Positions 1-14,400 of a stretch of DNA of 64,000 nucleotides are shown here, piece after piece. Below the pieces are notes generated by a model. The model was not told the DNA's origin, made no database searches, and saw only the letters and a program-made list of their open reading frames with translations. How positions within the stretch are numbered: position 1 is the stretch's first letter; each line of letters opens with the position of its first letter. A program made the translations under genes and the position numbers. The DNA comes from Bacteroidia bacterium. GTDB lineage: Bacteria; Bacteroidota; Bacteroidia; UKL13-3. The DNA lies in the NCBI GenBank assembly GCA_014376805.1, contig JACMQU010000178.1, positions 1-64,000 on the forward strand, given 5' to 3'.

Positions 1-555
1 ATTGGAAACTTAAAAGCACTTCAGATAACCTTTAAAAGTAAGTCTAAAAATGCTCCATACAGACAATTAATTTACCTGAAAAAATACTCCACCATATTTG
101 AAATCATGAACATTTATGAAGGAACGGAAAATGACTTTAAAACATTTTATAAAAGTATAACGATTGAAGAATGCCAAAAGTAAAGAGAAGGCTTTAGCAG
201 AGTTGGAGATCTTCAAAAAATACCAAAAAAAGATGATTGGATTTTTTATGTTTAACGAGGCTATGAATTTTTCCCTTGGTCAAAGCGAAATGACCCACGT
301 ATTTAATAGTCGAACAATGACTCTATTGCTGTAGCTTTTAAGAAATTTCTTTCAGAGTCAAATGTTAGTTATCCCGACATAAACAATCCCTTGTAGTTGA
401 TTAATAACATCACTCAACTGGAATCATTCTCAGGTTATGCTGTTTCAAAAAATTGGAGGAAAATTGAACAAATGGAATTTTCAAATGATGGAAACGGGTG
501 GCGATTGTCGAGAATATATTCAGATATAAAAGAGCAAAAGAATCAATTCAAATAA
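1..555 (+). pseudogene. decayed gene of unknown function, cut by the window edge
   Basis: The first frame is open from base 1 to a TAA at 181-183 (60 residues, ending EECQK). A second frame is then open from 182 to about 340 (starting KEKALAELEIF), and the first frame resumes near 310 and runs to a TAA at 553-555, broken by a TAG at 394-396. The three pieces join into one sensible, lysine- and phenylalanine-rich polypeptide if two small indels and one nonsense mutation are assumed. A terminator-like hairpin sits just after 555, where the end of a real gene would be. I do not recognise the family. Alternatives are two short unrelated genes, or chance open frames. Confidence 0.45.
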
Positions 556-559
556 ATAC

Positions 560-586
560 CAAAAGCTCTGGAAACCGGGGCTTTTG
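560..586 (+). terminator. hairpin after the decayed gene
   Basis: CAAAAGCTC pairs with GGGCTTTTG (one G-T wobble) around a 9-base loop, five bases after the TAA at 553-555. The downstream T-run is short and interrupted. It fits a Rho-independent terminator left behind by the decayed gene. Confidence 0.5.
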
Positions 587-1152
587 CTTGTGCGAAATCG
601 ACTAGATTATTCACTTATTAAAAGGGATGGGTGGTGTTGGTGGAATGAAGCCAGATAAACTCACTACAAGGCTGCAAAGGAACATGCAGCAGCCACAAGA
701 TCAGCTATTATAAGTCAATATAAAACCCTACATTTTTGAACAGGCAACTAACATTAGTAGGGTGTCCCTTATCCGCATGGTTTTATTACACGGCTTACAT
801 CCTTTACAACCCTTATCGGGGGGCATAGTTTTGTATTGTGATATAAATAGAAATCATTGATCGAGCCGATTACATTATCAGGAGTGGAACTTTTTTGTTG
901 TTCATAAAACGGTCGGAGTCCTGTTTAAAAAAGTTTAGCCACAAAGAAAAACTTCACCTTAAAAATGATAGCGTTTATAACAACTTTGTTGGTTGAATAA
1001 ATATGAAAGGTATTTGTTTTTTTTGAAAAAACATATGCATGCTACAAACAAATTAAGGCATTTCTAAAAGTTAAAATTAATTTTTATAAAATGAAATTAA
1101 AAAGGGAAAACAAAACACGCAAAAAAATAATAAAAATGCAATTATAGGAATG

Positions 1153-1676
1153 GATTTAAATAAGGCATCCTATTAATATTTTGGCGGAATATTTTTAATG
1201 AAAATTGAAGTAGTAAGACATGCCACCATTTTAACAATTGTGATGGAGTTAGGTGAGAATGGTTTACTAAATTCAAAAATTTTAAAGAATTTACTAGCTG
1301 TCTGCGACCTGCTCCCAATAACAAAATATCTCGTAGGAAAATATTGAGTAGCAAAATTTCAAGAGGAAGTCACCGACTTCAAATCGCTTTAATACAAGCA
1401 GCAAATGCCATTGGAAACTTAAGTGATATTCACCCCCCTCTTATGTTTTTAAAAATATAGCATATAGCAATGGCAGAGCAACGGCTGTAAGCGCAATTTT
1501 TTATAAAACTGGCCGTAATTATTTGGACAATTATTACCAAGAAAGTTTTATGGGCTCCTCTGGTTGAATACTTGTTTTTGGACCAAAAAATAAAATTGAA
1601 ATTGGTAAATGAAATAATGAAGAATATTGCTATGTTTGATATGAAACCTGAAGAAGTTGGCTTTGCAGTTACTTAA
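1153..1676 (+). pseudogene. IS110-family transposase remnant (C-terminal half)
   Basis: Pieces of an IS110/IS116/IS902-type transposase can be read in order but in changing frames. A segment with YFGGI and HATILTIVMELGENG runs from about 1177 to 1267. EFTSCLRPAPNNKIS to QAANAIGNL runs from about 1269 to 1457 and ends in TAG at 1458. AYSNGRATAVSA lies at about 1451-1500, and KLAVIIW to the final EEVGFAVT stop lies at 1506-1676. The order matches the family's C-terminal transposase_20 region. There are at least three frameshifts plus in-frame stops, and the N-terminal catalytic DEDD part is not visible, so the element is dead. I saw no matching ends. The family call rests on remembered motifs. 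Confidence 0.72.
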
Positions 1677-1766
1677 TTTATTGCGTTGTAATTAAACGTT
1701 AGGCTGAATTGCTGTGCAACACATTAACTATTATCTTCAAATAACGTTTCATCGAAAACAGAACAT

Positions 1767-2228
1767 ATGGAAAAAACAAAAATTACTAAATTTAAATTAA
1801 TTGGACTTAAGCTTGACAAAAAAACCACAAACGAAGGCGGACTATCAAATATTGATTGCGGAAATTTATGGCAGAAATTCGAAATTGAAAATTTTATTGA
1901 ACGAATACCAAATAAATTAAGTGATGAAATTTATGCAGTCTATTTTAACTATGAAGGTGATTACACCAAACCTTTTTCATATTTTATTGGATGCAAAGTC
2001 AAGGCAGACACAAACACTCCAAATGACATGAAAACTTTAATCATACCTGAAGATAATTACTCCAAACTAATTGCTAAAGGAAAAATGCCTGATTGTGTTG
2101 CAAATTCGTGGAAAGAAATATGGAGTTCAAAAATAAACAGAGCGTATAAATATGACTTTGAAATTTATAATGAACGAAGCAAAGATTGGAGCAATGCAGA
2201 AGTTGAAATATTTGTTTCTTCCATATAA
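1767..2228 (+). CDS. GyrI-like / AraC-type effector-binding domain protein
   Basis: This is a 153-residue cytoplasmic protein without signal peptide or membrane segment. It resembles the stand-alone effector-binding domain (GyrI-like, AraC_E_bind) seen in transcriptional activators. Visible family-like parts are a start with KFKLIGL, the block NLWQKFE, an acidic-aromatic centre (YAVYFNYEGDY, then FSYFIGCKV), LIIPEDNY, and an ending with YDFEIYNER followed by an acidic beta strand. No DNA-binding domain is attached, so it would act as a small-molecule binding protein rather than a regulator on its own. The ATG at 1767 is the first in frame. It stands alone between a dead transposase and a long gene-free stretch, which fits an accessory location. 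The ligand is unknown. Confidence 0.75.
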   Translation: MEKTKITKFKLIGLKLDKKTTNEGGLSNIDCGNLWQKFEIENFIERIPNKLSDEIYAVYFNYEGDYTKPFSYFIGCKVKADTNTPNDMKTLIIPEDNYSKLIAKGKMPDCVANSWKEIWSSKINRAYKYDFEIYNERSKDWSNAEVEIFVSSI

Positions 2229-3731
2229 GTACTCCGGTAAGTACATTTTTTTTCAGAATAGCAGAATGATCAATTTTGGATCATAAATAAAACAACCAAA
2301 GTTATGACTCAACATGTGAACCATGGTTGGTAAGTGGTTTGTTAAATGCGGGGTATGGCAAGAATACTGTTATAGGGTATAAAAGTTTTTAATATTTTTA
2401 TTTCTGTTACACGATATAGCAGGCAGTACAAGATTTACTTTACTTGAATAAAAATAATCGGCTGTTATTATTAAGTTTCATTTTTCCCAATGGTTGCTAT
2501 TTTATCTGTTACAGAAAATTGCTAGTTAATTGTGTTGCAAAATGGCCTTACGATTGCTAATTTATAGCCGCTAAGTATTTACTTAATATTTAATTGAGTT
2601 TTTGTTTTTGAGTGAATTAAAATAATATTATATAGGGAGATAATTTAGTGTTTGCAATATAATATTCTGGCAATAGGTAAACCTGAAAAATGTTTTGAAA
2701 ATGGCGTGAAATTTCAATTTAGTTATTCGCATGCTATCTTTTAAAATGAAGCTAAAAAAATGCGAAACACTTAATAATCTGGAGTCATCGATTATAAATT
2801 TATCGTTAATTATGAACCTTTAATATAGATGGTAAAGGCCTTGTAATTTTAAGCCGTACAATTAGAAATTGAGAAGTTACTTTAAGTCAATGTTATTTTA
2901 TTTACTTTGAAATATCAATATACATTTCCATCATATCAGATACCAACTTCTTTGTGGTAATCCTACTTATTATTTCCACTTTAAAAGAACTGTATTTCAA
3001 CCTTTACTGGCTTTGACATGTTGTAATTTCAGTGTATTTAAGCCTTAGTGTTTTTTTAAAAATTTCTGGTGGAAAGGCAGCAGGTTATTAAGAGCTAAAA
3101 ACATTTAAACAGTAACCATAAAACAATATTATTTTAAAATAAGTATGAAATAAAAACCGTACTTTTTTTAATGTAAACATACTGTCTTATGCAAGCATAC
3201 TGTTTGTAGTGTAAAAATTAACTCCGAGGTAATGTAGATTAAAGAAATGCTTTTATTTGAGACGTTTTTTAATTTAAATTTAAGGCCATACATGAATATA
3301 TAACCGCTCTTAGCATGGTAAAATGTTCTGATGATCATAAATTTTTTAAAAAAACCTGGTAATAATTGGTATTTATTAATTTTTTCTTATTTTGGCTGAA
3401 CCTAACTGTTAATTTATGGTAAACAAAACTATAATTATAAGTGAAATTTTAAATAATACGATAATATATTTAACTTAGATTTATGTTGAAAGACAGGTTC
3501 GATTTATAAACCAAGAAAATAGTTATAAATGTTAATACTACTTATTGATTTTAAGTTGTTGGCACTGCCTATTAGTTTGTAAAATAATTTCAATCTTAAA
3601 TATTTCGCCATATCTTAATTAACTAAATTCTAAAACTCACTTTATATACCTCATTCGCCAGTGAGCAAATAAAAGAAAATTACGGAGGGCAACCTCTTAA
3701 ATAAACATAATTTATATAATAAACTGAACAT
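2229..3731. other. 1.5-kb AT-rich intergenic region
   Basis: No convincing gene is seen on either strand. A short open stretch ending at 2392 (reading EPWLVSGLLNAGYGKNTVIG, then a few residues and a stop) has no start and could be a gene scrap. Just before the giant gene, GAGG-GCAA-CCTC near 3685 can form a small 4-bp hairpin in the leader. The region probably holds the control elements of the giant surface-protein gene, but I found no clean promoter match. Confidence 0.5.
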
Positions 3732-6700
3732 ATGAAAAGGATAATTTTACTTTCTTTTAGCCTGCTGCTTTTTAATTTCATAGGAAAAGCTCAGATTGCT
3801 ATTACTGTTAGTGGTACAGCTACCACCAATCCGGCTTTAACCTCTACTTATACCTCCTTGGCAAATGCGCTTACGGCATTAAATGCTGTATCAAGTTACA
3901 CAACACCCGGGACAATTGTATTTACAATGACAGCGAGTGGAACAGAAATAGCTCCCCCTACAGGTTTAACAATTGGAAGCGCAACGCTCAATCCATTATT
4001 AAGTTCTTCGAATACAGTTACTATTGTTAAGGCATCGGGAACTGTTACCCTAAACGCCGGAGTTGGAACTGCCACTCCCTCAAGTACCGTTTTGGATGGC
4101 CTATTAAAAATTTCAGGTGCAGACTTTATAACCATAGATGGTTTAACCTTAACAGACGGCAATGCTGCCAATCCTGCAACCATGGAATATGGAATTGGCT
4201 TGTTTAAATTAAGTTTATCTGATGGTGCACAAAATAATACAATTCAAAACTGCACAATAAATCTAAAGACAATTAATAATGCTTCCGGCACCACACCAAT
4301 GATTGAAGGGTCTGTAGGGATACTTATGATTAACTCAACAGCAGCAGCAGCTACAACAGTTTTAACGCCAACAACAGCGGCAGGAACAAATTCGAATAAT
4401 AAATTTTATTCGAATACCATTAATGGTGGTAACTATGGAATGGGTTTAATAGGATTTGCAGGAGTATCACCTTTTACAACCTGCGATCAGGGAACCATAG
4501 TAGGTGCTATTTCACTCGGTAACATCATTCAGAATTTTGGTGGTGGGGCCGTATCAAATCCTTCAGCTGCAATCAGAACGCTGGCTCAATATACTATCAC
4601 TATTGGTTATAATACAATTAATAACAATACAGCTTCCAATACAAACCATGCAACTACTTTCAGGGGTATATTTTTAAATACAGCTGTAAGTGCAAGTGCA
4701 ACTGTTACCAATAATACGGTAACTTTAAAATCGGGTGCAACCTCTTCATCTGTAACAGCAATTGAAAATGCAAGTGGATCAACAGCTGCATCAAATACAA
4801 TAAGTATAACAAATAATACTATAACAGGCTGTACCTACACAACAGCAACTACGGGTACGTTTACCGGCATATTGCAGTCTGCAACGCCAGCTACTACAAA
4901 TATTACCAACAATACCTTAACAGGAACTATTCTGGGGACTTCGACTGTTGCTTCATCATGTGTATTCCAAGGTCTTTATAACTCCGCTTCAAATGGTACT
5001 AACCCGGTTAATATTAATGCAAATACTATAATCAATAATGTAATAAATAACCAAGGTGGTACAATGTATTGTATTCGTGCGAGTACTGCCGACATAAGGG
5101 TAAATAGCAATACTATCAATAATAATACTATTCCATTATCCGGTGGTTCCGTGACTTGTTCCATTTATGGTTATTACAATTTGGGATCAGCCACTATTGA
5201 AACCTATAATTTAAATAATATAGATAATCTATCTATATCTGGTTCTTCAACTTCAGTTTCTTCAATCATAAGAGGAATGCATACTAATACAGTTTCAAGT
5301 AGTACTATTAATTCTAGTGGGAATAATATTAATACATTAACTTATAATAATAGTTCCTCCGGAGCTTGCTCTATATATGGAATGAGTTTTACCTTAGGAA
5401 CGGTTGTATTCTCTAAAAATAAAATATATAACATTACTGCTAATGGAGTAAGTTCTACCGCATATGGAGTAAATATCAGTGGTGGAACAACGGTTACTTT
5501 AGCAAACAATTTAATTGGTGATATTAAAACGCCAACAGCAAATGCAGCTATTCCATTGGCAGGTATAAATATTACTAGTGGAACCGCCGTTAACTTATAT
5601 TATAACACTGTTTATTTAAACACAAGCAGCACAGGTGCCTTGTTTGGTTCATCAGCTCTATATGCGTCAATAACTCCAACACTAATATTAAGAAATAACA
5701 TTTTTGTTAATCTATCTACGCCAACTGCGGCAACAGGTTACACAACAGCTTATAGAAGAACGAGCACTACACTCACTTCCTATTCTGCAACATCAAACAA
5801 TAATTTATTTTATGGGAGTAGCCCGGGTACAAATAATTTAATTTTTTATGATGGTACAAACTCAAGTCAAACCATTGCCTTATATAAAACATTTATGTCA
5901 ACACGTGATCAGGCATCTGTGTCTGAAAGTTCAACCTTTGTTAGCACAACAGGCGGCAGTGCACAGTTTCTTGAATTAAACGGCACTGTTGCATCTCAAG
6001 CTGAAAGCGGCGGGGTTGCCATATCAGGCTTTACAGATTCATATAATGGAACCGGAGTAAGAACAGGGTATCCACAAACTTCACAAACTAATGGGGGAGG
6101 AACCGCACCTGATATGGGTGCTTATGAAGGCAACTATACGCCATCGGATCAAACCGGTCCGATTATTACTTATACTGCATTTTCAAATACATCATCAACA
6201 TCCGACCGTACTTTAAACGTTACTATAACAGATGCAAGCGGTGTGCCTACTTTCGGAGCGGGTTTACCTGTATTAAACTGGAAGATTAATGCGGGTGCTT
6301 ATTCTTTAGTAACGGCTACTTACATATCCGGGTCTACATACCAATTTGTTTTTGGATCAGGAGTAGTGCCAACAGATGTAGTTTCATATTATATAGCTGC
6401 CCAGGATAATTCAGCATCAATGAATGTATCGGTTAGTCCAGCCTCAGGTGCCTCAGGTTTAACCTCTAATCCGCCGGCCGCCTCAACTATTCCAACCTCT
6501 CCAAGTACGTACACCATTCTTAATGGAATAAACGGTTCATTTGATATAGGAGCAACCAAAACTTCTCCAAATTATACCACACTAACTAATGCATTATCTG
6601 ATATTTCGTCAAAGGAAATTAACGGTACTATTACATTGAATATTGATGCAGATTACGATCCTACTTTAGAAACAGCTTTCCCTGTAATAATTAATGAATT

Positions 6701-9700
6701 ATTGGGAGCCAGTTCTATCAACACCGTTACTATTAAACCTAAAACAGGTGTTACCAAAACAATTACAGGAAACTCAGCAACTTCTATCATTAAGATTTAT
6801 GGTGGTGATTACATTACAATTGATGGAAGTAATAATGGAACAATAAGCAGGGATCTTACTATTGAAAATACAAACACCGCAACTTCCGGAAATGCGGTTA
6901 TCTGGCTTGCCTCACCCGCAAGTGGGAATGGTTCAAATTCTAACACTATAAAAAATTGTATTATACAGGGTAATGCATCAACAACAACTTTTCTTGGAAT
7001 GTACATTGGAGGTACGGCAAGTATATCTTTAACATCGTCAGGAGTTGAAAAGAACAACACCAATACCATAACGAGCAACCTTTTTAAAAAGACCCAATAC
7101 GGAATTGCTTTATTTGGATATGCAGCAGCTCAACCCGATTTAAATAATATTATCTCTAACAACAATTTTGGTACAGCAACGACAGGAGAGGGATTTAATA
7201 TTGAAGGAATTCATTCTGACCGCCAGCAATCTTTAACGGTTTCTGGAAATGATGTACAGAATATAAGAAGCATAACTTCTACTGCTATTTATGGAATACG
7301 TTTACTTGATTTTAAATCGGGTTTGTGTTATAATAATTTAGTTCATAATATTGCTTATACAAGCACAAGTACAACTAAAGTTTATGGTATTGCTGTTCTA
7401 AGTTCATCCTATGCATTAGTTGGTAACCCATCGGCTGCTAACATTTATAACAATGCTATATACGACATTACCAGCACTGGTACAGCCACGGATTGGAACC
7501 TTACAGGGATATTAGCTAGTCAGGGTTATGGAGATAAATTTTATTACAATTCAGTAAATTTAGCCGGCCAGGTTAATAATAGTTCATCAGGTTTATCGGC
7601 GTCCTTTGCTAATGGTAATGGGAGTTTAACAACACCGGGCACAAATGTTGATATAAGAAATAATATTTTTAGCTTAACCGGTACTTCGCTTGGAGGACCT
7701 GTTTATGCTTATTATTCTAAGGCAACCAGTTTTAGTGGTTCTACACAGAATAATAATATTTTATATGCTGCGGGTACAGGAGCTTCAACTTATACATTGG
7801 GTTATTTTAATTCAACAGCTTATACAACTTTATCTGCCTGGCAAACGGCAACAGGTGTTGAAGCAAATAGTTTAGCTGTTAATCCACAATATAACAATGC
7901 TACCGTACTTAAACCTCAATTAGGTTCACCCGCATTGAATGCCGGAGTAACTATAACCGGTTTTACCGCGGATATTCTTGGTGTTACACGCTCGGTTTCG
8001 ACTCCAACTATTGGTGCATATGAAACTGGAGTGGATGGAGCTGGTCCAAACATTACCTACACAACCTTAGGTAATACCGCACTTGCAAGTAACCGTAGTA
8101 TTACAGCTGTAGCTATAACGGATGTGAGTGGCGTAAATACCACAATTGGAACTAAGCCCCGCTTATATTTTAAAAAATCTACTGATGCAAATACCTATGT
8201 TGGCAATACAAGTGGGGACAATGGATGGAAGTATGCAGAATCAACCAGCTCTGCTTCACCATTTGATTTTACAATAGACTATAATATTATTAATGGAGGT
8301 TCGGTAACTGGCGGTAATACTGTACAGTATTTTATTGTTGCGCAGGATCTTGCTGCCACCCCTAATGTGGGAATTAATTCCGGAACTTTTTCTGCCACCC
8401 CAACAAGTGTTAATTTAACTTCTGGTGCATTTCCATTAACAGGTACAATAAATCAATATTTAATTTCAGCCGCATTTACCGGTTCTTACGATGTTGGAAC
8501 CAGTGCCGCAACCTACACTACCTTAAAATCATTTTTTGATGCAATAAATGCTGGGGTTGTTACAGGCAATATTTCAGTGAATATTGTGGGTACATGCACA
8601 GAGTCTACTACAGCAAGTTTAAGTCAGTGGTCTGAAGAACCGGCAAGTTCTAATTTTACAATGACCATTAGTCCGAGTGGTGGAGCGGCTAGGTTGATAA
8701 CAGGAACTTTAGCAACAGCTACTGTTAAACTTGATGGTGCAGACAGGGTAACAATTGATGGCTTAAACACAGGCGGTAATACATTAACAATTGAAAATTT
8801 AAGTGTTGCGGCTTCTTCTGCAGCCATATGGATGAGCAGTCAGGGAACAGGATTGGGTGCAACCAATAATGCAATTAAGAACAGCACCATAAAAGGAGGA
8901 TCCAACACTGTGGCTAATTATGGAATAGTAATAGGAGGTACTACCATTGCAAGTAATGGTGCAGATAATGACAACAACACAATTCAAAACAATACGATAA
9001 ATACCTGCGCTATTGGAATATATGCTATAGGCACTGCTGCAGGAAGTACAGGTGGTATAGACAATCTTACCTTATCGGGCAATGCTATTACTATTAATAC
9101 AACCGCAGCGGTAATTGGTATTGAAGTTGGTAACGGAACAGGTGGTGCAATCACTCAGAATCAGTTAAGTGTACAAACAACGAATACTGCCGTAGCAGGA
9201 ATATCTATAGAAACGGGCTTTTTAAATGCCACTGTAACAAGGAACCTTTTAAGCAATGTTACAACAACAGCTACCAATGGTTATGGAGGAAGAGGAATAA
9301 CAGTAGGAACAGGATCGGCAAGCAGTAATATAACCCTATCAAACAATGTAATTTATGGTGTAAGCGGATCAAACTTTAGTTCATTCACTAACTCTTCATC
9401 TATGGGAATTGGTTTGGGAATGATTGGAAACACAAGCACATTAACTACAACAACCGGAGGAATAAATCTTTATTACAACAGCATCAATATGTATGGAAAT
9501 TATGCTTACGCAGGTGCTTGCCTTACAACAGGGTTATATGTTGGTTCAGGAGTAACTGCATTGGATCTTCGAAACAATATTTTTAAGAACTCGTTAAACA
9601 ATACGGATTTGAGCGGAACCGGTTCAAAAAATTATGTTATCTATTCAGCAGCTTCCAATACCGCTTTTAGTAATATAAATTACAATGATTATTTTGTAAG

Positions 9701-12700
9701 CGGTACGCAAGGGGTATTAGCGTTTTTAACATCAGACAGAACTGATCTAACAGGTATTCAGTCTGGTTTTGGCGGAAATGTAAATTCTTCAACAGCCAAC
9801 CCCAACTTTAACTCAAATACTATACTCCAACCACAAACGGGCTCACCTGTATTGGCAGCAGGAGCGCCAATTAGTGGGATAACAACTGACTATTCGGGCA
9901 CTACACGTTCAGGAACAACACCGTCTATTGGTGCGTATGAAAATGGTTCGGATGGAGCACCACCAGTAATTAGTTATACCACTTTAGGGAATATATCTTC
10001 TACAACCAATCGCAGTTTAACAAGTGTAGTTATAACAGATGCCAGCGGAGTAAACACTACTCCAGGCACCAAGCCCCGCTTATATTTTAAAAAATCTACT
10101 GATGCAAACACCTATGTTGGCAATACAAGTGGGGATAATGGATGGAAGTATGTAGAATCAACCAGTTCTGCCTCTCCATTTGATTTTACGATAAATTATT
10201 CAATAATTAATGGAGGTTCTATTTCGGGGGGTAATATAATTCAATATTTTATAGCAGCTCAGGATCTTGCTGCCACCCCTAATGTGGGAATAAATTCCGG
10301 AACTTTTTCTGCCACTCCAACAAGTGTTAATTTAACTTCTGCTGCATTTCCATTAACAGGTACAATAAATCAATATTTAATTTCAGCCGCATTTACCGGT
10401 TCTTATGATGTTGGAACCGGTGCCGCAACCTACACTACCTTAAAGTCGTTTTTTGATGCAATAAATTCTGGGGTTGTTACAGGTAACATTACCGTGAATA
10501 TTGTGGGTACATGCACAGAGTCTACTACAGCAAGTTTAAGTCAGTGGTCTGAAGAACCTGCCAGCTCTAATTTTACGATGTCCATTAGCCCGAGCGGAGG
10601 TGCATCAAGGTTAATAACCGGAACTTTAGCAACAGCCACTGTTAAATTAGATGGAGCAGACAGGGTAACAATTGATGGCTTAAACACAGGTGGTAATACA
10701 TTAACAATTGAAAATTTAAGTGTTGCAGCTTCTTCTGCTGCGGTATGGTTAAGCAGCCAGGGAACAGGATTGGGTGCAACCAATAATGCAATTAAGAACA
10801 GCACCATAAAAGGAGGATCCAACACAGTGGCTAATTATGGAATAGTAATAGGTGGCACAACCATTCCAAGCAATGGTGCAGATAATGACAACACCACAAT
10901 TCAAAACAATACGATAAATACCTGCGCTAATGGAATATACGCTATAGGCACTGCTGCAGTAAGCACAGGTGGTATAGACAATCTTACCTTATCGGGCAAT
11001 GTTATAACTATTAATACAACCGCAGCGGTAATTGGTATTGAAGTAGGTAATGGAACGGGTGGAAGTATTAGCCAGAATCAATTAAACGTGCAAACTTCAG
11101 GTACCGCAGTGGCCGGAATATCTATAGAAACGGGCTTTTTAAATGCCACAGTAACAAGGAACCTTTTAAGCAATGTTACAACAACAGCTACCGGAGGATA
11201 TGGCGGAAGAGGAATAACAGCAGGAACAGCTTCGGCAAGCAGTAATATAACCATATCAAATAATGTTATTTATGGTGTTAACGGTTCAAATTACAGTTCA
11301 TTCACAAACTCTTCATCAATAGGTATAGGTTTGGGAATGATTGGTAACTCAACCACTTTAACTACAACAACCGGAGGAATAAATCTTTATTACAACAGCA
11401 TAAATATGTATGGAAATTATGCTTACGCGAGTGCTTGCCTTACAACAGGGTTATATGTTGGTTCAGGAGTAACTGCATTGGATATTCGTAATAATATTTT
11501 TAAGAATTCGTTAAACAATACGGATTTAAGCGGAACAGTATCAAAGAATTACGCGATTTATTCTGCTGCTGCAAATACAGCCTTTACGAGCATTAACAAC
11601 AACGATTATTTTGTAAGCGGTACACAAGGTGTTTTAGCATTCTTAACATCTGACAGAACAACACTGGCTGCATTACAAACCGGTTTTGGAAGCAATATTA
11701 ATTCTTATAATATCAATCCGGGTTTTACAAGTACAACTAATCTTTTAGAGGTTGCAAATGCATTCCCAAGTAACTATTTATTAGGGTCAGCCATAAGCGG
11801 TATTACAACAGATTTTGCAGGATTAACCCGAAGCAGCACACCTGATTTAGGCGCTTATGAAGGCAGTGATGCGAACCGTTGGATTGGTGTTACCTCAACA
11901 GCATTTACTACAGGTTCTAACTGGGATGATGGCAATGTGCCTTCATCAGGTCAAAGCCTTACCATTTCATCTTATGCTTCGAACAGTCCTGTTTTAACAG
12001 CAAGCTACAATGCCAATAACCTTTATATAGGTGCCGGGCAAATATTAGGTTTGAACGCAAATACTTTATTGATAGATGGTGCGCTATCCGGAACAGGTAC
12101 CTTAAAAGGTAATGGATCATTAACCATTCAAGGAAGTGGTGCTTTTGGTACCGTTTCTTTTGATCAAACAATACCGGGTACTACAAATAAATTAACCAAT
12201 CTTACTTATAACCGTTCGGCTCAAACCATAACACTAGGAAATGTACTGCAGGTTAGTGGCACTGTTACGCCAACAGCAGGAACATTAGAAACCAGTGGTT
12301 TTTTAACTTTATTATCTTCCTCTACAAGTGATGGAAATATTGCACAGGGTAGCGGTTCATACTTAACCGGAACCGTAAGTGTTCAACGCTTTATCCCCGG
12401 AAGTTCAGGTCGCAAATACCGTTACCTCGCTGCACCTTTTATAACAGGTCCAACAATTGGAGATAGCTGGCAACAACAAATATATATTACCGGCACAGGA
12501 ACTGGAGGTACTGCGTGCCCTTCACTAACATCACATACAAATGGGTTCGATGCTTCTACTTATAATAATTACAGTATGACTACATTTAATGAGACAACTG
12601 CTATTGCTACAGCCTCCACTCCAAACGTAACCGGTGCAACTATATATACAAATGCCTGGACTGGTGTACCCACTACCAATGCCACAAATCTTGCTGCCGG

Positions 12701-13856
12701 AATTGGTTATAATACATTTATCAGAGGTGCAAGAAGCCAGGGTTGCGGGCTGTTAGATGGAACAAATCCAACTCCGAATGATGTAACATTAAGTGCCACC
12801 GGAACCATTACTACAGGTTCATTTACCATACCTGTAACTTATAATGCTTCAAACGGCCAGGGATGGAACCTTGTTGGGAACCCTTATCCTAGTGCGATTG
12901 ACTGGGATGCAGCAGCTTGGACAAAAACCAATATGTCATCAACTATATGGATTTACAGACCTTCAAATGATAATATTGCTACTTATAATGGTACTACCGG
13001 AATAAATGGTGGTGGAAATATTATACCATCGGGACAAGGATTTTATGTAAAAGCTACAGCTTCATCACCAATACTGGCAGTTACGGAAGCAGTAAAAACA
13101 AGTGCTGCTGCAACTGTATTATTATTAAAAGGTAATAAGCCTTTTGAAATAAGATTAACCCTGAAAAACAGTGCAAACAAATCTGATGAAACAGTTGTGG
13201 TATTGAATAAGGAAAAAACAGATTTATATGATGGTGATTTTGATGCGGAAAAAATGAATAATCCAAGTAATGTAAATCTGTTCACTATAGATGCTATGAA
13301 TGCCAAGTACGGTATTAATGGAATTGCAACCATTGTAGACAGGGACTTTAAAATTGTTCCTTTAGGCATTGGAGCTGCATTTGTTGGGAATTATACCATT
13401 GATATGGAAGCACCAAATCTTCCTTCATATTACCAGCTATTTTTGCGTGATCATTATTTACTTACAGAAAAGCAGCTAACAAACGAAGATAAAATTACAC
13501 ATAGCTTTAATGTAACAACAGATTCGGCTTCTTTTGGTAACCAACGTTTCGATCTGTATATTAAAAATGAAAGACCTCATTCAAATACGGGTATAGGTAG
13601 TATTAATGGTTCAGAAACAGAAGTGAATGTTTATCCTAACCCAACTTTAAATATTTTAAATGTTTCAATTATACATCAGGTTAAACCGGTTAGCAGTTTA
13701 GTGCTTTATAATACATTGGGTCAAATTGTGAATAAGATAAATAATCCCCGTAAAGATGAGGTTATTGACCTGAGTGGATTTGAATCGGGGATTTACTTCC
13801 TGCAGGTAATGAGTGAAAATGATTCAGTGCTTACATTTAAAGTGATTAAAAAATAA
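3732..13856 (+). CDS. giant T9SS-secreted beta-helix surface protein
   Basis: This 3,374-residue protein begins with a signal peptide (MKRIILLSFSLLLFNFIGKAQ), so it crosses the inner membrane by Sec. It ends with a type IX sorting domain at about residues 3296-3374 (VNVYPNPTLNILNVSI, then SGIYFLQV, ending in VIKK), so it is exported to the surface. The body is rich in Thr, Ser, Asn and Gly, with many short N-N-T-I-type repeats typical of right-handed parallel beta-helices. Four modules each end in a GAYE motif, near residues 798, 1430, 2070 and 2708. The last three start with an Ig/Fn3-like stretch (G-P-x-I-x-Y-T). After residue 2711 come a non-repetitive beta domain with ANRWIGVTST and a conserved block containing GWNLVGNPYPSAIDWD. 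Adhesin, matrix component or glycan-binding protein are all possible; no catalytic motif is evident. It is followed 37 bp later by a PID-CTERM-like protein, probably in the same operon. Confidence 0.9.
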   Translation: MKRIILLSFSLLLFNFIGKAQIAITVSGTATTNPALTSTYTSLANALTALNAVSSYTTPGTIVFTMTASGTEIAPPTGLTIGSATLNPLLSSSNTVTIVKASGTVTLNAGVGTATPSSTVLDGLLKISGADFITIDGLTLTDGNAANPATMEYGIGLFKLSLSDGAQNNTIQNCTINLKTINNASGTTPMIEGSVGILMINSTAAAATTVLTPTTAAGTNSNNKFYSNTINGGNYGMGLIGFAGVSPFTTCDQGTIVGAISLGNIIQNFGGGAVSNPSAAIRTLAQYTITIGYNTINNNTASNTNHATTFRGIFLNTAVSASATVTNNTVTLKSGATSSSVTAIENASGSTAASNTISITNNTITGCTYTTATTGTFTGILQSATPATTNITNNTLTGTILGTSTVASSCVFQGLYNSASNGTNPVNINANTIINNVINNQGGTMYCIRASTADIRVNSNTINNNTIPLSGGSVTCSIYGYYNLGSATIETYNLNNIDNLSISGSSTSVSSIIRGMHTNTVSSSTINSSGNNINTLTYNNSSSGACSIYGMSFTLGTVVFSKNKIYNITANGVSSTAYGVNISGGTTVTLANNLIGDIKTPTANAAIPLAGINITSGTAVNLYYNTVYLNTSSTGALFGSSALYASITPTLILRNNIFVNLSTPTAATGYTTAYRRTSTTLTSYSATSNNNLFYGSSPGTNNLIFYDGTNSSQTIALYKTFMSTRDQASVSESSTFVSTTGGSAQFLELNGTVASQAESGGVAISGFTDSYNGTGVRTGYPQTSQTNGGGTAPDMGAYEGNYTPSDQTGPIITYTAFSNTSSTSDRTLNVTITDASGVPTFGAGLPVLNWKINAGAYSLVTATYISGSTYQFVFGSGVVPTDVVSYYIAAQDNSASMNVSVSPASGASGLTSNPPAASTIPTSPSTYTILNGINGSFDIGATKTSPNYTTLTNALSDISSKEINGTITLNIDADYDPTLETAFPVIINELLGASSINTVTIKPKTGVTKTITGNSATSIIKIYGGDYITIDGSNNGTISRDLTIENTNTATSGNAVIWLASPASGNGSNSNTIKNCIIQGNASTTTFLGMYIGGTASISLTSSGVEKNNTNTITSNLFKKTQYGIALFGYAAAQPDLNNIISNNNFGTATTGEGFNIEGIHSDRQQSLTVSGNDVQNIRSITSTAIYGIRLLDFKSGLCYNNLVHNIAYTSTSTTKVYGIAVLSSSYALVGNPSAANIYNNAIYDITSTGTATDWNLTGILASQGYGDKFYYNSVNLAGQVNNSSSGLSASFANGNGSLTTPGTNVDIRNNIFSLTGTSLGGPVYAYYSKATSFSGSTQNNNILYAAGTGASTYTLGYFNSTAYTTLSAWQTATGVEANSLAVNPQYNNATVLKPQLGSPALNAGVTITGFTADILGVTRSVSTPTIGAYETGVDGAGPNITYTTLGNTALASNRSITAVAITDVSGVNTTIGTKPRLYFKKSTDANTYVGNTSGDNGWKYAESTSSASPFDFTIDYNIINGGSVTGGNTVQYFIVAQDLAATPNVGINSGTFSATPTSVNLTSGAFPLTGTINQYLISAAFTGSYDVGTSAATYTTLKSFFDAINAGVVTGNISVNIVGTCTESTTASLSQWSEEPASSNFTMTISPSGGAARLITGTLATATVKLDGADRVTIDGLNTGGNTLTIENLSVAASSAAIWMSSQGTGLGATNNAIKNSTIKGGSNTVANYGIVIGGTTIASNGADNDNNTIQNNTINTCAIGIYAIGTAAGSTGGIDNLTLSGNAITINTTAAVIGIEVGNGTGGAITQNQLSVQTTNTAVAGISIETGFLNATVTRNLLSNVTTTATNGYGGRGITVGTGSASSNITLSNNVIYGVSGSNFSSFTNSSSMGIGLGMIGNTSTLTTTTGGINLYYNSINMYGNYAYAGACLTTGLYVGSGVTALDLRNNIFKNSLNNTDLSGTGSKNYVIYSAASNTAFSNINYNDYFVSGTQGVLAFLTSDRTDLTGIQSGFGGNVNSSTANPNFNSNTILQPQTGSPVLAAGAPISGITTDYSGTTRSGTTPSIGAYENGSDGAPPVISYTTLGNISSTTNRSLTSVVITDASGVNTTPGTKPRLYFKKSTDANTYVGNTSGDNGWKYVESTSSASPFDFTINYSIINGGSISGGNIIQYFIAAQDLAATPNVGINSGTFSATPTSVNLTSAAFPLTGTINQYLISAAFTGSYDVGTGAATYTTLKSFFDAINSGVVTGNITVNIVGTCTESTTASLSQWSEEPASSNFTMSISPSGGASRLITGTLATATVKLDGADRVTIDGLNTGGNTLTIENLSVAASSAAVWLSSQGTGLGATNNAIKNSTIKGGSNTVANYGIVIGGTTIPSNGADNDNTTIQNNTINTCANGIYAIGTAAVSTGGIDNLTLSGNVITINTTAAVIGIEVGNGTGGSISQNQLNVQTSGTAVAGISIETGFLNATVTRNLLSNVTTTATGGYGGRGITAGTASASSNITISNNVIYGVNGSNYSSFTNSSSIGIGLGMIGNSTTLTTTTGGINLYYNSINMYGNYAYASACLTTGLYVGSGVTALDIRNNIFKNSLNNTDLSGTVSKNYAIYSAAANTAFTSINNNDYFVSGTQGVLAFLTSDRTTLAALQTGFGSNINSYNINPGFTSTTNLLEVANAFPSNYLLGSAISGITTDFAGLTRSSTPDLGAYEGSDANRWIGVTSTAFTTGSNWDDGNVPSSGQSLTISSYASNSPVLTASYNANNLYIGAGQILGLNANTLLIDGALSGTGTLKGNGSLTIQGSGAFGTVSFDQTIPGTTNKLTNLTYNRSAQTITLGNVLQVSGTVTPTAGTLETSGFLTLLSSSTSDGNIAQGSGSYLTGTVSVQRFIPGSSGRKYRYLAAPFITGPTIGDSWQQQIYITGTGTGGTACPSLTSHTNGFDASTYNNYSMTTFNETTAIATASTPNVTGATIYTNAWTGVPTTNATNLAAGIGYNTFIRGARSQGCGLLDGTNPTPNDVTLSATGTITTGSFTIPVTYNASNGQGWNLVGNPYPSAIDWDAAAWTKTNMSSTIWIYRPSNDNIATYNGTTGINGGGNIIPSGQGFYVKATASSPILAVTEAVKTSAAATVLLLKGNKPFEIRLTLKNSANKSDETVVVLNKEKTDLYDGDFDAEKMNNPSNVNLFTIDAMNAKYGINGIATIVDRDFKIVPLGIGAAFVGNYTIDMEAPNLPSYYQLFLRDHYLLTEKQLTNEDKITHSFNVTTDSASFGNQRFDLYIKNERPHSNTGIGSINGSETEVNVYPNPTLNILNVSIIHQVKPVSSLVLYNTLGQIVNKINNPRKDEVIDLSGFESGIYFLQVMSENDSVLTFKVIKK
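8031..9947 (+). repeat. 1,917-bp tandem repeat, copy 1
   Basis: This copy encodes 639 residues: an Ig/Fn3-like part (ITYTTLGN, KPRLYFKKSTDANTYVG) and then a beta-helix part (KLDGADRVTIDGLNTGG) ending in a GAYE motif. Landmarks at 8161 and 9461 recur exactly 1,917 bases later, at 10078 and 11378, so the copies differ by substitutions and not by net indels. A more diverged relative lies at about 6157-8030. Confidence 0.93.
9948..11864 (+). repeat. 1,917-bp tandem repeat, copy 2
   Basis: This is the second copy, in register with the first at an offset of 1,917 (3 x 639). Most residues are identical, and long nucleotide runs are unchanged, for example around 11371-11460 against 9454-9543. This points to a recent duplication or continuing gene conversion. 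Confidence 0.93.
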
Positions 13857-13893: not shown

Positions 13894-14400
13894 ATGAAAA
13901 ATAAAAATTTAAGACGACTAAGCCTGATATTAATCATTCTATTATCTGTGATGTTAACTTCAAATCAAATTTTTGCTCAGAATAATGAGGATGATGATGA
14001 GAATGAAAATGCGAGCGATATGAATAGCAACCGATTTGAAAGCGGACTTGATAATTCATACGAAACCCAAAAGCCATTTTATCAAAAAGAAATTAAAAAT
14101 AAACAAGGTAATGATGTCGATAATCATAATAACTCAGAACTGGATATTGATGTTCATAGAGGAACGTATTCAGCCCCGGTTATTATTAGTGGCGGTAATG
14201 GTCCGGTAGACAATGGGAATACACAAGGTCGCACTTCCACATCAAATGGCTTTTCTCAACCCATAACCAGAGTTGATCCTAACACCTCATTTCCGGATAA
14301 TCCACCCGATCCGGATGCACCAATTGATGGTGGAATAAGCCTGCTGGTGGCGGCAGGTTTGGGTTTTGGAATGTATAAGAGAAATAAAGATAAGAGTTAA
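13894..14400 (+). CDS. small acidic exported protein with PID-CTERM-like sorting tail
   Basis: This 168-residue protein has an N-terminal signal peptide (hydrophobic LSLILIILLSVMLTS, cleavage likely after IFAQ). A very acidic Asp/Glu/Asn-rich stretch follows at about residues 29-50. A low-complexity hydrophilic middle contains ISGGNGPVDNGN. The C-terminus has PDPDAPIDGG, then a hydrophobic segment (ISLLVAAGLGFGMY) and a basic end (KRNKDKS). That tripartite tail is the layout of the Bacteroidota PID-CTERM sorting signal: motif, membrane segment, basic cluster. The function of the body is unknown. It lies 37 bp after the giant T9SS protein and before a strong terminator, so the two are probably co-transcribed. 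Known: such tails mark surface-sorted proteins. Inferred: the partner role. Confidence 0.8.
   Translation: MKNKNLRRLSLILIILLSVMLTSNQIFAQNNEDDDENENASDMNSNRFESGLDNSYETQKPFYQKEIKNKQGNDVDNHNNSELDIDVHRGTYSAPVIISGGNGPVDNGNTQGRTSTSNGFSQPITRVDPNTSFPDNPPDPDAPIDGGISLLVAAGLGFGMYKRNKDKS

Follow-up and report, generated by a model that had tools for sequence, protein, structure and literature searches.

Arrays of cleaved-adhesin domains are carried by the T9SS proteins HagA, Kgp and RgpA of Porphyromonas gingivalis, in which domains are shuffled and the number of repeats differs between strains (PMC5266723). The giant protein described here, from a Bacteroidota bacterium, resembles them as a predicted T9SS-exported surface protein built of tandem homologous modules, but its modules belong to a different domain family. 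Furthermore, the repeats of HagA are so alike that they break assemblies, whereas the copies within the giant protein differ by 12–16% in DNA; strain variation is documented for HagA, whereas the giant protein is known here from one genome of its species. At the level of the single module, the closest described systems are the GH136 lacto-N-biosidase LnbX, PL6 lyases, tailspikes and pneumococcal PfbA, which share a parallel beta-helix with the predicted unit; with ~10–15% sequence identity, this likeness is one of predicted fold. The GAYE module ends of the protein fall in the curated domain of the choice-of-anchor Q proteins (NF041518), a family which covers only the ~58-residue module end and comes without a function. 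Our literature search returned no paper on choice-of-anchor Q and none combining T9SS, beta-helix, tandem modules and adhesin. As laid out below, we consider it likely that the giant protein is a T9SS-exported beta-helix rod, probably a stalk or adhesin, whose last two modules are alike through intragenic copying and later gene conversion.

Domain Architecture and Export

The features of the giant gene and its downstream neighbor are listed in Table 1, with coordinates referring to the window, the whole stretch of 64,000 nucleotides that was analysed. A preliminary description of the window had reported a 10-kb gene with four modules that end in GAYE and with a T9SS sorting domain, and this layout is borne out by the open reading frame, the motif positions (GAYE at residues 796, 1428, 2067 and 2707, each marking a module end) and the profile matches. 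The module ends match the NCBIfam profile choice_anch_Q in three stretches (59.6 bits against a cut-off of 25, E = 2.6e-16).

Table 1. Position of the giant gene, its parts and the following gene in the window
Feature	Coordinates	Strand	Remarks
Giant T9SS-dependent modular protein, open reading frame	3732..13856	+	3,374 aa; uninterrupted frame in window
Signal-peptide-like N-terminus	3732..3794	+	MKRIILLSFSLLLFNFIGKAQ; read by eye from sequence
Module 1	3795..6131	+	aa 22-800; longest and most diverged; GAYE end at aa 796
Module 2	6519..8024	+	aa 930-1431; 35-36% identical to modules 3/4, synonymous sites saturated
Beta-rich linker before module 3	8025..8465	+	aa 1432-1578
High-identity segment, copy A	8067..9746	+	~aa 1446-2005; 88% nt identity to copy B, patchy
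Module 3	8466..9941	+	aa 1579-2070; predicted parallel beta-helix
Module 3 tail	9612..9941	+	aa 1961-2070; orthologous to penultimate tail of G003; orthology breakpoint at start
High-identity segment, copy B	9984..11663	+	+1,917 bp from copy A
Module 4	10383..11861	+	aa 2218-2710; orthologous throughout to last module of G003
C-terminal region before sorting domain	11862..13628	+	aa 2711-3299; includes conserved ~430-aa GWNLxGNPYPS part
T9SS type A C-terminal sorting domain (PF18962)	13629..13838	+	
PID-CTERM protein gene	13894..14400	+	168 aa; signal-like N-terminus; PID-CTERM motif at 14317-14379

The reading as a T9SS surface protein is supported by the match of residues 3300–3369 to the C-terminal sorting domain (Por_Secre_tail, PF18962, TIGR04183; 42.3 bits against a cut-off of 27, E = 9.4e-11). 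The same genome encodes the T9SS translocon SprA (2512 bits) and contains 137 matches to the T9SS C-terminal domain. The N-terminus, for which a signal peptide had been proposed earlier, looks like a Sec signal when read by eye. These features point to export of the giant protein and its anchoring at the cell surface.

Upstream of the gene, positions 1–3700 of the window form an almost gene-free contig end that looks like decayed coding sequence, with a small GyrI-like (Cass2) gene at 1767–2228 as its sole gene. No Rfam match was found in the window.

Predicted Fold and Function of the Repeat Unit

An AlphaFold2 model of the unit, built from 29 aligned sequences, is almost entirely beta (mean pLDDT 90, pTM 0.86) and predicts with high confidence a beta-rich linker followed by a parallel beta-helix. 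The best matches among solved folds are parallel beta-helix proteins, namely LnbX, PL6 and other polysaccharide lyases, phage tailspikes and the PfbA adhesin, and a library of viral structures gives similar fold matches. The Foldseek TM-scores reach no more than 0.45, a modest value due to the joint search with linker and helix. When sequence was compared with solved structures, one weak match was obtained, to a "parallel beta-helix repeat protein". The beta-helix reading of the preliminary description thus gains support from both the structure prediction and the fold matches. Each module would accordingly consist of a beta-rich linker and a right-handed parallel beta-helix, with a GAYE / choice-of-anchor-Q tail closing it, and the modules together would form a T9SS-exported rod at the cell surface.

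The presence of a GH136 lacto-N-biosidase and PL6 lyases among the best fold matches raises the question of whether each module is a polysaccharide-degrading enzyme of one of these types rather than part of a stalk or adhesin. Conserved Asp residues at unit positions 231, 236 and 546 would fit such a role and leave room for it. However, neither Pfam nor NCBIfam contains an enzyme family matched by the giant protein, the invariant residues of the unit are mostly Gly and Asn, as is typical of residues that scaffold a helix, and those acidic positions that are strictly invariant are located in the C-terminal tail. We therefore regard the enzymatic reading as improbable. The most likely function is that of a long surface stalk or adhesin binding a polysaccharide or a surface.

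Modules 3 and 4 Are Similar, Yet Neither Near-Identical nor Recent

Modules 3 and 4 are spaced by exactly 639 residues (1,917 bp), as described previously, and their cores contain no indels. Over the 639-residue unit, the two copies share 86.3% of amino acids and 84.4% of nucleotides (dS 0.54, dN 0.09); in the core (residues 1441–2000), dS decreases to 0.43 and dN to 0.05. The high-identity segment displays 199 differences over 1,680 bp, 137 of them at third positions, which corresponds to 88% nucleotide identity. Likeness fades over the ~60 residues at the end of each module, where the tails drop to 45–62% identity. Module 2 is clearly diverged, as had been noted: it shares 35–36% of amino acids with either module 3 or 4, and its synonymous sites are saturated (pS 0.70–0.73). 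Module 2 is thus far more distant from modules 3 and 4 than these two are from one another, yet the duplication is neither "nearly perfect" nor "recent", the two terms previously applied to it. With the identities given above, diverged tails and a longest identical run of 68 bp, the first term does not hold, and the dS of 0.43–0.54 argues against the second. Synonymous divergence on a par with module 2, named in the preliminary description as a finding that would refute its reading, is reached at either end of the unit (pS 0.68–0.88) and not in its core. The ~200 scattered differences, mostly at third positions, also exclude an assembly artefact that duplicated one copy.

The exact period, the absence of core indels, the high protein identity and the position of the two modules as sisters in the module tree could all be produced by a simple recent tandem duplication of the unit, giving rise to an array of variable copy number. 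Such an event would leave neither the observed synonymous divergence, nor the diverged unit ends, nor identical runs as short as those found here, and it offers no account of the clustering of synonymous differences described below; we consider it unlikely. Homologous recombination between copies that differ by 12–16% in DNA and share no identical run longer than 68 bp is expected to change copy number slowly. The change of module number by recombination that the preliminary description envisaged for the giant gene should hence be slow.

Comparison with an Orthologue Points to a Chimaeric Module 3

One genome of the same genus (G003) encodes an orthologue with an alignable C-terminal half, which served for comparison. 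In their C-terminal regions the two proteins are 63% identical, and the orthologue, too, has two modules in its C-terminal part. From residue 1961 to the end of the giant protein identity amounts to 45–77% (67–77% in the first 360 residues), whereas before residue 1961 it amounts to 21–55%. The step, from 0.42 to 0.72 at residue ~1961, falls inside module 3. The linker and core of module 3 resemble the last module of the orthologue, while its tail resembles the penultimate one. At sites separating these two orthologous modules, the module 3 tail votes 20:3 for the penultimate module and the core 61:178 (Fisher p = 8e-9); module 4 displays no such switch between core and tail (p = 0.35). Tail identities follow the same pattern, with 0.71 between module 3 and the penultimate module of the orthologue, 0.68 between module 4 and the last one, and 0.47 between modules 3 and 4 themselves. 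In the module tree, modules 3 and 4 are joined first (99/98) and then the last module of the orthologue (100/100).

Judged by these alignments, module 3 is a chimaera with its breakpoint at residue ~1961. The site votes, tail identities and tree together suggest that, in this lineage, intragenic recombination placed a copy of the last module's linker and core beside the pre-existing penultimate tail, with the copying directed from the last module to the penultimate position. Around residues ~1741–1800, both modules are closer to the penultimate module of the orthologue, which suggests that earlier exchanges occurred too. The copying either replaced an old module or inserted a new one; these two routes are not separable, since further upstream the two proteins, with their modules, are not orthologous.

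Patchy Synonymous Divergence Is Best Explained by Gene Conversion

Along the alignment, modules 3 and 4 differ unevenly at third positions and at four-fold sites. None of 10,000 shuffles was as uneven as the observed distribution (p < 1e-4), and clustering is also seen in the inner part alone (p = 0.004). Near-identical silent patches (pS 0.06–0.2) are located around residues 1541–1600, 1741–1780 and 1901–1940, with other stretches near saturation. As a control, module 3 or 4 was compared with the same-genus orthologue: here pS remains at about 0.5–0.9 throughout and the differences are not clustered (p = 0.22 and 0.99), which speaks against uneven constraint as the source of the patches. No close donor for either module was found elsewhere in the genome, the best candidate having 30% identity.

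An old duplication in which purifying selection on a functional surface preserved the likeness, with no conversion at all, would agree with the low dN/dS between the modules (about 0.12–0.16). Selection at the protein level, however, leaves near-zero silent patches unexplained, particularly as the same sites are strongly diverged from the orthologue, and we give this scenario little credence. Partial gene conversion, with converted tracts laid over an older copy, appears to be the simplest account of the patchy likeness: short conversion tracts would have re-homogenised parts of the two copies later on, while the rest diverged. Of the two options offered in the preliminary description, recent duplication or gene conversion, it is the latter that the clustered synonymous differences and the chimaeric module 3 support.

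In a tree of 48 well-matched modules taken from the window and related genomes, two other proteins, from different lineages, contain tandem pairs that are mutual closest relatives (L033, 81% identity; L065, 66%), and the remaining module pairs within proteins are 26–43% identical. Given these independent tandem pairs, copying between adjacent modules recurs in this family of beta-helix modules. The L033 pair also shows a local minimum in silent divergence.

A PID-CTERM Gene Follows the Giant Gene

A PID-CTERM gene begins 37 bp downstream of the giant gene (NF046080, 36.1 bits against a cut-off of 26), and its orthologue occupies the matching place in G003. In the first loci, a regular-expression search for PID-CTERM recovered only these two. 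The genome itself contains two PID-CTERM genes, both directly following a T9SS cargo gene. We then considered 30 PID-CTERM loci (29 from relatives and the second one of this genome) with flanks of ~1.5 kb. A T9SS sorting domain ends just upstream on the same strand in 19 of the 30, and none occurs at any other position in these flanks. A binomial test gives p = 1e-19 against a background of 4%, which was estimated from about 137 cargo genes and the size of this genome; with the background raised to 10%, p is still 2e-12. Both values are too small, as the related genomes are not independent. With longer flanks, the pair is present in 16 of 21 loci, the window included.

In front of its sorting domain, from residue ~2740–2880 onward, the giant protein aligns with 14 other proteins whose genes lie upstream of a PID-CTERM gene, and GWNLxGNPYPS is conserved. 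This ~430-residue region lies outside Pfam coverage, and the predicted structure of the C-terminal region (pLDDT 40) is too poor for use. The genome encodes four GWNLxGNPYPS proteins; a PID-CTERM gene comes next in two cases and is absent there in the other two. In several relatives, an exosortase X gene comes after the PID-CTERM gene. In this genome (88.5% complete), the best score for XrtX (NF046081) is 88.6 bits against a cut-off of 170, and PF09721 matches no exosortase; a sub-threshold XrtX relative is found on another contig (L126, G000:C117:47064-47552). Its neighboring frames, by eye, look like a DegT-type aminotransferase and a sugar acetyltransferase.

The giant gene may thus be one case of a recurrent pair that we have not found described, a T9SS cargo with a ~430-residue GWNLxGNPYPS module followed by a PID-CTERM gene, with exosortase X adjoining in some genomes. 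We tentatively hypothesize, as a possibility held with less than even confidence, that exosortase substrate and T9SS cargo act together at the surface. Our literature search returned no paper on PID-CTERM, which in itself does not make the pairing unknown.

Conclusions

For a T9SS surface protein, the giant gene provides a clear and quantified case of copied modules with patchy gene conversion, in which the breakpoint of the chimaeric module can be located. This is useful for understanding how giant T9SS proteins evolve, although it is unsurprising, being an ordinary evolutionary route for such proteins. The pairing of T9SS cargo with PID-CTERM genes may be more interesting than the repeat itself. 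Should PID-CTERM proteins and T9SS cargo prove to be functional partners, this would link two systems of surface sorting that are treated as separate.
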